Positions 52,643 through 56,050 of a stretch of DNA of 64,000 bases are shown piece after piece (position 1 is the first letter of the stretch; each line of letters opens with the position of its first letter). Origin of the DNA: Candidatus Altimarinota bacterium (lineage in GTDB: Bacteria > Patescibacteriota > Gracilibacteria > UBA4473); assembly GCA_021734785.1 (NCBI GenBank), contig JAIPIF010000002.1:1-64000 (forward strand), given 5' to 3'. A program made the position numbers and the translations under genes. Below the pieces are notes generated by a model. The model had not been told where the DNA came from. It saw only the letters and a program-made list of their open reading frames with translations, and ran no database searches.

Positions 52643-55600
52643 ATGCAAAAAAATTACGATCATCTTGCTTCTGAAGACCCCATTTACGCTGCGTGGGAAG
52701 CAGCGGGGGTGCTGGAGGCTGACGAAAATTCTGACAAAAAATCCTACACGATTCCGCTCCCGCCCCCGAATGTCACGGGACAATTGCATCTGGGGCATGC
52801 GGCGATGCTGGCGGTGGAGGACATCCTGATTCGTCACAAAAAGATGACCGGCCACGAAGTGCTGTGGCTGCCGGGCACCGATCACGCGGCAATTGCCACC
52901 GAAAACGTTGTCTTGAAACATCTAGGGCTAAAGTCGCGAGAGGACATGTCGCGGGCAGATTTTCTCAGTGAATGTCGGAAATTTGCCAGTGAAAAACACG
53001 ACCGGATCGTGCACCAGATCAAAAAAATGGGCGCGCACCTGGACTGGTCACGCGAGGCGTACACGTTTGATCGCGAGCGCAATTTTGCGGTGAATTGGAT
53101 CTTCAAAAAACTGTACGACGACGGACTCATCACCCGCGGTCACCGCATGATCAACTGGTCGGTGGGGGCACAATCAGTACTGGCCGATGACGAAGTCGAA
53201 TGGCAGGAAAACAACGAGGATTTTTTTGAATTTTGGTGTGGGCCGTTTCTTCTCGGCACCGTGCGCGCCGAAACCAAATGCGCCGACAGTCCGGTGATGG
53301 TGCACCCCAAGGCAAAATACGTCCGTGCGCGCAGTGCAGACGGTCGCGAGTGCATCGTGACGGAAAAATATTTCACAGAGCACACACAGCTGCGGAAGGA
53401 CTTCGAAATACAGGAAACCGTTCCCGGAAAGAAGCTGGAAGGAATGAAATTTGAAGCCGAGACCTACGCTGGCAAGCGGAAATTTTGGGTGGTGGCCGAT
53501 GAGGTGATCGATCCCGCGTTTGGTACGGGAGCCATGACCATCTCGACCGCGCATTCTCCGGACGACTTTGTTCTGGCACAGAAATACGACTTTGACCTGG
53601 TCCAAAAAATTGATTTTAAGGGAAAAATGACCCAGATCGCCGGGCCATGTGAAGGACTTCCCGTCCTCGAAGCACGAAAACGAGCTGGCGAAATCATGGA
53701 AGAAAAGGGGCTGCTATTTCAGCGACGCCCATACGCAAACCGCGTCCCAAAATGCTACCGCTCTGACACTGTGGTGGAGCCGATGCTCTCGCCGCAGTGG
53801 TTTATCTCGGTCGAAAAAGAATTCCCCGACCCCGTTTCTGGCAAAAAAACAACCCTCAAAAAACTCATGCAGGAAGCGGTTCGCGGCGGTCATGTCCAGA
53901 TCGTGCCGAAGCGATTTGAAAAAGTGTACTTCCAGTGGATCGACAATCTCCGTGATTGGTGTATCAGTCGCCAGATCTGGTGGGGACATCGGATCCCGGT
54001 GTGGTACGACGCAGACGAAAATGTGCACCTGCCGGAGGTCAAGTCGATCACGTTTGCCCGGCACGGTGAGAGCGAGGCCAATGTCAAAAACGTGATTGGG
54101 GGGGATTTTTCCCTCACAGAAAAGGGCAAGAAAACCGCGGAACAGATTTTTAAAGCCGTGAAAGACCAAAATATTTCTAAAATCATCTGTTCCGACCTAA
54201 AACGATCAAAGGAAACCGCAGCGATTGTTTCAGAGCTTTTTGCAAATGATGTGCAGATTGAAGAATGGCCAGAGCTCAATGAATTTTCTTCCTCGGAGCT
54301 GGCCCAAAAAGCCGGCAAAAACTTCCGTCGGGAGGGGCCACTCCAGATCAATTTTGATCAGCTCACGGACGAAAGCCTTGATCAGATACGCGATCGGGCG
54401 CAGTCTGTGTTTGCCACATTACAAGAGGAAGCAGGGGAGGTGCTCGTCATCGGTCACCAAAACATCACGGCGGCGCTGTTTCACTTCAGTCGTTCTGACG
54501 ACACAGAGGGGTTTGTTCGCTTCCGAAAAAATTGGAACTGGGGGCGCGGAGAGTGCAAGGATTTGGAGTTTTTGCAATCTCCTCGCGGAAAAAATTTACG
54601 CCAAGACGAGGACACGCTCGACACCTGGTTTAGCTCGGCGCTGTGGCCCTTTTCCACACTGGGATGGCCAAACCAGACACGAGATTTCGAGAAATTTTAT
54701 CCCACGGATGTGCTCGAGACAGGGCACGATATTTTGTTTTTCTGGGTGGCACGGATGATCATGTTTGGCCGGTACGCGACGGGCGAATACCCTTTTCACA
54801 CGGTGTACCTGCACGGGATGGTGACGGATGAGCAGGGACGCAAAATGTCCAAGTCGCGCCCTGAAACCTGTATCGATCCGCTCGAGACAATTGAAGAAGT
54901 GGGGGCAGATGCGGTTCGTCTTTCCCTCGTGATCGGAGCGACGCCTGGTAACCCGATCCCACTCAGCAAAGAAAAAATTGCCGGGTACCGAAATTTTGTC
55001 AACAAACTCTGGAATGCTGGGCGGTTTGTGCAGATGCAGACCTCACAAAACCCCCCTCAATCCCCCCTTGAAAAAGGGGGAGGTACCGCTTCTCCGCAGC
55101 CCACATCGTTGGCCGATCGATGGATTGCATCACGGCTCACGACGGTGGCAAAAGACGTTGCAACTAAATTGCAAAAATACCAGATTTCTGCGGCAGGAGA
55201 CGCGATTTATCATTTTGTCTGGGATGAATTTTGTGACTGGTACATCGAGGCAAGTAAGATTAATTCAAACCCTGCATTTTTACGACACCTTTTTCTCGAG
55301 ATCCTGAAACTCGCGCACCCGCTGGTACCATTCATCACGGAGAAACTCTGGAAAGAACTTGGTGCGGAGGGGGTGTTGATCGAGCAGGCATTTCCCGAGC
55401 CGACATTTCAAGACGCCGAATCGGTTGACGAGTTTGCACACATTCGTGAGGTCGTCACTGAGATTCGTCGGGTGCGAGCGGAGAAAAAACTCAATCCCCG
55501 TGAGAAAATTTCTGTCCAAATTTCCCCAAAACTTGAAGCAGAATCGGCGGCGCTGATCGAAAGTTTGGCTGGTGTGAAATTCGAAAAAATCACAGCAGCA

Positions 55601-56050
55601 GACGCGACGAAACTCTCTGTCGGCAAAACGGAAATCTTGCTGCACCTGCCGGTGGACGCGACACGGATTGAAAAAGAAAAAAAAGAACTCGCATCGCAAA
55701 TTGCGGCACTCAAATCCCGCCTGGCCAATCCCGGGTACACCGAAAAAGCGCCCAAAAATCTGGTTGATCAGACCCGAAAAGAACTCGCGGAGGCAGAGGA
55801 GAAGCTGAAGAAATTAGGCGGAAAAGCTTTTGAAGAAAAAAAGGATGAAACATGGCTTGTTCAAGAAATTTCTGAAAAGGCAAAAATTTCTTCGAGTGAT
55901 GCAAAAAAAGCACTTCAAGAGTTTGAGCAATTTATAATTCGAGCATACTCAGAAAAAAAGAGAGTAAAAATTTCCGGACTGGGGGAATTCGATTTTGAAG
56001 AAAAAAGAAAAAAAATGGAATTTTTTATGGCTGAGGAGGAGTTGTCGTGA
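52643..56050 (+). CDS. valS: Valyl-tRNA synthetase with inserted histidine phosphatase and C-terminal HU-like domain
   Basis: 1135 residues, about 180 over the usual. HIGH motif NVTGQLHLGHA near 43-53, editing domain, GHRIPVWYDA near 450, and KMSKS near 734. Between GHRIPVWYDA and DEDTLDTWFSSALWPF, where a zinc finger usually lies, there is a full histidine-phosphatase domain (about 466-645): FARHGESEAN, CSDLKRSKETA, WPELNEFSS and VIGHQN are all there. Residues about 800-817 come from a G/C repeat. After the coiled-coil arm, residues about 1070-1125 (WLVQEISEKAKISSSDAKK.., then KRVKISGLGEFDFEEK) look like the first half of an HU protein. Confidence 0.93.
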   Translation: MQKNYDHLASEDPIYAAWEAAGVLEADENSDKKSYTIPLPPPNVTGQLHLGHAAMLAVEDILIRHKKMTGHEVLWLPGTDHAAIATENVVLKHLGLKSREDMSRADFLSECRKFASEKHDRIVHQIKKMGAHLDWSREAYTFDRERNFAVNWIFKKLYDDGLITRGHRMINWSVGAQSVLADDEVEWQENNEDFFEFWCGPFLLGTVRAETKCADSPVMVHPKAKYVRARSADGRECIVTEKYFTEHTQLRKDFEIQETVPGKKLEGMKFEAETYAGKRKFWVVADEVIDPAFGTGAMTISTAHSPDDFVLAQKYDFDLVQKIDFKGKMTQIAGPCEGLPVLEARKRAGEIMEEKGLLFQRRPYANRVPKCYRSDTVVEPMLSPQWFISVEKEFPDPVSGKKTTLKKLMQEAVRGGHVQIVPKRFEKVYFQWIDNLRDWCISRQIWWGHRIPVWYDADENVHLPEVKSITFARHGESEANVKNVIGGDFSLTEKGKKTAEQIFKAVKDQNISKIICSDLKRSKETAAIVSELFANDVQIEEWPELNEFSSSELAQKAGKNFRREGPLQINFDQLTDESLDQIRDRAQSVFATLQEEAGEVLVIGHQNITAALFHFSRSDDTEGFVRFRKNWNWGRGECKDLEFLQSPRGKNLRQDEDTLDTWFSSALWPFSTLGWPNQTRDFEKFYPTDVLETGHDILFFWVARMIMFGRYATGEYPFHTVYLHGMVTDEQGRKMSKSRPETCIDPLETIEEVGADAVRLSLVIGATPGNPIPLSKEKIAGYRNFVNKLWNAGRFVQMQTSQNPPQSPLEKGGGTASPQPTSLADRWIASRLTTVAKDVATKLQKYQISAAGDAIYHFVWDEFCDWYIEASKINSNPAFLRHLFLEILKLAHPLVPFITEKLWKELGAEGVLIEQAFPEPTFQDAESVDEFAHIREVVTEIRRVRAEKKLNPREKISVQISPKLEAESAALIESLAGVKFEKITAADATKLSVGKTEILLHLPVDATRIEKEKKELASQIAALKSRLANPGYTEKAPKNLVDQTRKELAEAEEKLKKLGGKAFEEKKDETWLVQEISEKAKISSSDAKKALQEFEQFIIRAYSEKKRVKISGLGEFDFEEKRKKMEFFMAEEELS
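55051..55083. repeat. G/C inverted repeat inserted in frame in valS
   Basis: CCCCCCTT/AAGGGGG stem (55062-55080) preceded by CCCCCCTCAAT. It is translated as NPPQSPLEKGGG in a loop region of ValRS. The comF start has SPLQKGG, and 7396-7455 has a related pattern. Confidence 0.75.

Follow-up and report, generated by a model that had tools for sequence, protein, structure and literature searches.

In the window, i.e. the stretch of 64,000 nucleotides from Candidatus Altimarinota bacterium that was analyzed, the forward strand between positions 52643 and 56050 contains an open reading frame of 1135 amino acids plus stop, with an ATG start. Pfam and NCBIfam identify it as valS, encoding a valyl-tRNA synthetase (ValRS) with inserts, and all the features described below lie on the same strand. 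Three Pfam domains score above their curated cut-offs: tRNA-synt_1 (5e-124, in two stretches flanking an insert), Anticodon_1 (2e-34) and Val_tRNA-synt_C (3e-10). The protein also passes the NCBIfam valS profiles NF004349 (853 bits, cut-off 704) and TIGR00422 (766 bits, cut-off 612). Alignment to Thermus thermophilus ValRS (1gax) and conserved columns delimit a first half of the synthetase (residues 1–462, positions 52643–54028) that ends at the ISRQIWWGHRIPVWY strand, and contains the HLGH motif (residues 49–52) and the CP1 editing domain. The second half (residues 653–1065, positions 54599–55837), delimited by Pfam and the same alignment, contains DEDTLDTWFSS, the KMSKS motif (residues 734–738), the anticodon-binding bundle and the C-terminal tRNA-binding arm. 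The protein thus has the HIGH-type and KMSKS motifs, CP1, anticodon-binding domain and C-terminal arm by which a ValRS is recognized, and the invariant columns H49-L50-G51-H52 and K734-M735-S736-K737 are intact. AlphaFold2 (AF2) modeled the whole protein with pLDDT 84.5. In a genome-wide profile search this was the sole frame to pass the valS cut-off, and since the genome has no second ValRS we infer that it charges tRNA-Val with valine.

The two halves are separated by a branch-1 histidine phosphatase (HP) domain (residues ~467–645, positions 54041–54577), found using PF00300, alignments, AF2 and Foldseek. It lies between WWGHRIPVWYDADENVHLPEV and GKNLRQDEDTLDTWFSS, and the alignment with the Thermus enzyme is broken at Thermus residues 426–444, which form the zinc knuckle. 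In other bacterial ValRS the same gap holds either a CxxC...CxxC knuckle of ~28 amino acids or a cysteine-free loop of 20–30 amino acids. In the HP-free ValRS used for comparison it is mostly a loop of 20–30 amino acids, with 57 in one, and CxxC pairs are often present. His_Phos_1 (PF00300) matches residues 469–613 with E = 1.3e-23 (84 bits, cut-off 21.7). Alignments show that the catalytic quintet is complete (R473, H474, R521, E547 and H605), so that the RHG motif, second arginine, acid/base glutamate and second histidine of a branch-1 HP are all in place. Confidence across the domain in the whole-protein AF2 model is mostly in the 80s to 90s, with the exception of the loop 551–574. Modeled in isolation the domain gives pTM 0.83, with its first and last β-strands near the domain termini. 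Its Foldseek neighbors include CobC, the PFKFB bisphosphatase and PhoE among others, and sequence profiles agree. Pfam, the quintet alignment, AF2 and Foldseek therefore bear out the preliminary description, in which a phosphatase with intact motifs was placed at the zinc-finger site. Judged by these features the domain is probably an active phosphatase. It scores below every curated NCBIfam subfamily cut-off tried (CobC, dPGM, PspA and SixA), the best values for the domain alone being 57 bits against 225 for dPGM_arch and 56 against 163 for CobC. Consequently the substrate is not given by homology.

The protein ends in an HU-like tail of 70 amino acids (residues 1066–1135, positions 55838–56047), delimited by its match to PF00216, comparison with the HU of the same genome and GC3. 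Bac_DNA_binding (PF00216) matches residues 1072–1124 (7e-7, 29.8 bits, cut-off 22.4) over positions 6–58 of 90. The tail has the helical core and first strands, without the DNA-binding β-arm or the C-terminal helix of a full HU domain, and the arm is likewise missing on alignment to the full-length HU encoded elsewhere in the genome. It is absent from every ValRS relative examined, including that of a congener (G001), and is AT-rich, its GC3 of 0.27 contrasting with 0.56 over the gene as a whole. The tail seems to have been added recently and in this species only, and has no obvious DNA-binding elements. A domain search and structure prediction had been proposed at the outset as checks on both added domains. 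In the search both His_Phos_1 and Bac_DNA_binding exceeded their curated cut-offs, and in the prediction the HP fold is confident whereas that of the HU part is only moderately so. The HU match therefore stands, but as a partial one. The further proposal that the HU part binds nucleic acid is not supported, given a missing arm, occurrence in this species alone and a model of only moderate confidence; the HU core might serve in pairing. In congener G001 a GNAT-like gene (L034:2325-2918) overlaps the end of valS.

We surveyed 60 relatives for PF00300 matches, and compared the large frames with E. coli ValS and IleS. The HP matches lie repeatedly inside frames of >1000 amino acids. The domain is carried by 18 of the 18 ValRS cores examined from the family of the window (f1) and a second family of the same class (f15). 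Other families of Patescibacteria have an HP in IleRS or ValRS, and in the ValRS of these families it lies at the same site. The fusion had initially been described as unusual, with a suggestion to examine its breadth; for the HP that description does not hold. HP insertion is the rule in the family of the window and recurs across Patescibacteria, more commonly in IleRS than in ValRS. By contrast, the HU tail is confined to this one ValRS among those compared. In ValRS the major site (V1) is that of the zinc knuckle, occupied by a tandem pair in some proteins including that of G001, and a second (V2) is at E. coli residue ~387 in two genomes. In IleRS, site I1 lies between the cysteine pairs, at the tip of a zinc knuckle that is equivalent to that of ValRS, while I2 and I3 are at residues ~548 and ~673. 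An IleRS sometimes has two or three copies (three in one protein). The genome of the window has two PF00300 domains in total and both are inserts, one in ValRS and one in IleRS. That IleRS (C1:20800-25000; L033:3083-7300, minus strand) has a GNAT domain at site I2 and the HP at site I3.

We also asked how the HP compares with other small domains in 20 genomes of the window's family. Counted by hand, frames of >900 amino acids contain 43 of the 57 HPs, a handful of incomplete genes at contig ends being included as inserts, compared with 4 of 61 GNAT and 0 of 71 NUDIX domains. The HP is therefore favored as an insert. In twelve genomes from other bacterial groups there were no HP matches in frames of >300 amino acids. 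Since relatives repeatedly place the same kind of phosphatase in the valine and isoleucine enzymes, its presence there is a lineage-wide design and no accident. Searches of the openly accessible literature turned up no published account of these proteins with HP or DUF559 inserted.

To follow the history of the insert we built a ValRS tree on cores from which the HP had been removed. The 18 HP-containing ValRS from f1 and f15 fall in a single group (support 100). On this tree the insertion is old: the common ancestor of both families would already have had it, and it was inherited with the gene. Over the whole tree HP presence in ValRS implies four to five gains or losses, as the minimum is five changes and well-supported branches force four. 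In a tree of the HP domains themselves the sequences group largely by insertion site, with those of ValRS scattered. The distinct insertion positions require several insertion events, and the ValRS core tree concurs. An AU test did not reject a single clade of all ValRS and AlaRS HPs (p = 0.078), so the argument for several events draws on these positions and the core tree and not on the HP tree. The one AlaRS with an HP insert (G042, L083:2797-5982) has no acid/base glutamate, and its domain falls among the ValRS HPs. A UvrB (G026, L073:3061-6435) has both HP and Ser_hydrolase (PF06821) inserts, and its HP is near that of the IleRS of the same genome. In congener G001 a second HP directly follows the first, and the window ValRS does not have it. 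Given that G009 and G012 also have HPs of this second type, it was most likely lost in the window. With two copies in a congener and one in the window, HP copy number is evidently loose.

The catalytic quintet is conserved very differently in the two synthetases. It is complete in 59 of 61 IleRS inserts (I1, 32/32; I2, 4/5; I3, 23/24), but in only 20 of 31 ValRS inserts including that of the window (V1, 20/29; V2, 0/2). The difference has a Fisher p = 7e-5 with the sequences treated as unrelated. Elsewhere the quintet is complete in the UvrB insert (1/1) and incomplete in that of AlaRS (0/1). Catalytic residues have been lost from nine of the 29 V1 inserts and from both V2 inserts, so HP activity cannot be essential in every ValRS. 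In the ValRS HPs of L051, L063 and L068 the second histidine has become asparagine. Comparing the window with G001 gave dN/dS = 0.084 for the HP and 0.067 for the first half of the core, at a dS near 2 that is saturated. Taken with the complete quintet and the mostly intact relatives, the low ratio suggests that the window HP is apparently under selection.

With catalytic residues gone from a third of its inserts, the HP of ValRS may turn structural. The domain might on this basis be a replacement for the zinc knuckle, its fold serving as a scaffold that stabilizes the core or touches the acceptor end of the tRNA, with phosphatase activity incidental or gone. The location at the knuckle site would fit, as would the absence of the cysteine pairs from the window ValRS and the retention of the domain where its catalytic residues are lost, as in the three asparagine-containing proteins. 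Yet many IleRS with an insert at I1 have both zinc cysteine pairs together with the HP, so at that site it is no substitute for the knuckle. Nor would a scaffold account for the completeness of the quintet in nearly all IleRS inserts and in the window ValRS. We consider a purely structural role unlikely.

The genome offers a different possibility. A palindromic repeat of the CCCCCTTNNAAAAAGGGGG type is present in dozens of copies, compared with one for a reversed control pattern. One copy lies within valS (positions 55062–55080), in frame in a surface loop, where it encodes the peptide NPPQSPLEKGG. The peptide is absent from the ValRS of the congener; L056, and perhaps also L037, has a similar peptide in this loop. 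The only two DUF559 domains of the genome are in-frame inserts beside palindromic sequence, one in an Elp3-like protein (L196:1330-3561; C6:95552) and the other in UvrC (L201:940-3225; C1:78380). An IleRS from G009 (L048) contains DUF559 as well, likewise as an insert, and the domain may represent a mobile element with insertion sites inside genes. The repeat in valS and the DUF559 domains in UvrC and the Elp3-like protein indicate that this genome readily accepts in-frame inserts. This is the strongest support for regarding the HP as a passenger. These lineages would tolerate small single-domain enzymes in frame in surface loops of large host proteins, and the HP would have hardly anything to do with what its host does. 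The occasional insertion of other small enzymes (GNAT, NUDIX and DUF559) into IleRS, the HPs in AlaRS and UvrB, and the difference in copy number between congeners all point the same way. On the other hand HP inserts are far commoner than those of GNAT or NUDIX, the IleRS domains retain their catalytic residues across large distances, and insertion has repeatedly involved one pair of enzymes and one site. We therefore regard a passenger as improbable. Palindromic repeats may have carried the HP in: none was noticed at its junctions in the protein sequence, though the insertion is old.

On balance we favor a ValRS in which an active phosphatase takes the place of the zinc knuckle, tethered by the aminoacylation site and coupled to the activation of valine and isoleucine; the evidence leans toward this reading rather than compelling it. 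As the catalytic residues and an independent fold have been kept, the HP most likely would act as an independent phosphomonoesterase through a phosphohistidine. H474 would be the attacking nucleophile, with R473, R521 and H605 gripping the phosphate and E547 acting as the acid/base. Insertion between the halves of the catalytic domain suggests that the HP would be anchored beside the aminoacylation center. The IleRS of the same genome would provide a second such phosphatase at a different site, and selection has probably acted to keep a small phosphatase physically coupled to Val/Ile activation. The target might be a phosphorylated small molecule of that process, and our guess would be either nucleotide by-products of the Ap4A or AMP kind or a phosphorylated amino acid analog. 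Hydrolysis of an adenylate by-product or of a regulatory phosphate had been suggested in the preliminary description.

A link to Val/Ile activation is hinted at by the repeated choice of ValRS and IleRS, and by gene order in the genus g10. There ileS is followed by genes for a glyoxalase-like protein, a YbaK-like deacylase, an HP and a threonine-dehydratase-like protein (names read from sequence). Three loci show this order (L050, L062 and L067), and in two of them ileS is itself preceded by a GNAT-like gene. The free HPs of g10 belong to the clade of IleRS I2 inserts, and the HP of its ValRS has lost the second histidine. We have set this neighborhood aside as proof of function, as it is suggestive only. 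With an HP in one AlaRS and one UvrB, and other domains inserted too, a task specific to valine and isoleucine is not proven.

The phosphatase might alternatively guard Val/Ile charging, either as quality control or in self-protection, for example by destroying a phosphorylated inhibitor that mimics the aminoacyl adenylate. The HP is mainly restricted to two editing synthetases, and in g10 the deacylase and free HP genes occur together near ileS. No sequence feature indicates such a substrate however, all subfamily models being below cut-off, and the usual CP1 editing domain is present, making this very unlikely. An assembly join or frame error can be dismissed for the HP and is highly improbable for the tail: the HU tail alone is unique to this assembly and of odd composition, but the frame is single and open with the tail in frame, a convergent gene begins right after the stop, and the same-site HP insert occurs in many independent assemblies of relatives.

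If the preferred reading of a tethered, active phosphatase is extended beyond the window, Patescibacteria would have gained a phosphatase in the branched-chain synthetases several times at equivalent positions, so that tRNA charging would be coupled to the turnover of one particular phosphorylated metabolite or signaling nucleotide. We offer this general proposal tentatively, as something possible rather than probable. If true, it would be a regulatory or clean-up activity of a synthetase without known counterpart elsewhere. Few enzymes are as conserved as synthetases, and a phosphatase has been repeatedly built into two of them across Patescibacteria. Its catalytic residues have been kept in IleRS and are decaying in some ValRS, giving a natural series on the selection of a second enzyme inside an essential one. 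Should the domain be active, this would suggest that some phosphorylated compound is linked to the activation of branched-chain amino acids in these bacteria, which are reduced and for the most part uncultured.

Known domains added to synthetases serve mostly in tRNA binding, editing or complex formation. The window ValRS shares with other bacterial valS products, and with T. thermophilus ValRS, the class Ia scaffold, HLGH, KMSKS, CP1, anticodon bundle and C-terminal arm. It matches 1gax by Foldseek with TM = 0.82, and differs in having an HP of ~180 amino acids instead of the zinc knuckle, plus the HU-like tail. The insert has the motif set, quintet and fold of branch-1 HPs (PF00300), such as the CobC α-ribazole phosphatase, PhoE, the PFKFB bisphosphatase domain and the PspA-type phosphoserine phosphatase. 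Identity to these is ~20%, and it lies inside a synthetase where the known ones are free-standing. Mycobacterial enzymes of the MutT1 type are NUDIX-HP proteins, in which a histidine phosphatase is coupled to nucleotide clean-up. One relative's IleRS (L074) also has NUDIX and HP in one protein, and a functional likeness would be a guess by analogy; the MutT1 type is not a synthetase, and a literature search on the likeness found nothing. A further parallel is IleRS with GNAT (NCBIfam NF040702, ileS_w_GNAT), where a small enzyme lies within a class Ia synthetase as in the window ValRS. The domain and the synthetase are different, and neither the window ValRS (166 bits) nor the IleRS of the same genome with its GNAT and HP (245 bits) reaches the cut-off of 1999 bits. 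The existence of this model indicates that its curators had already met one relative of the insertions described here.
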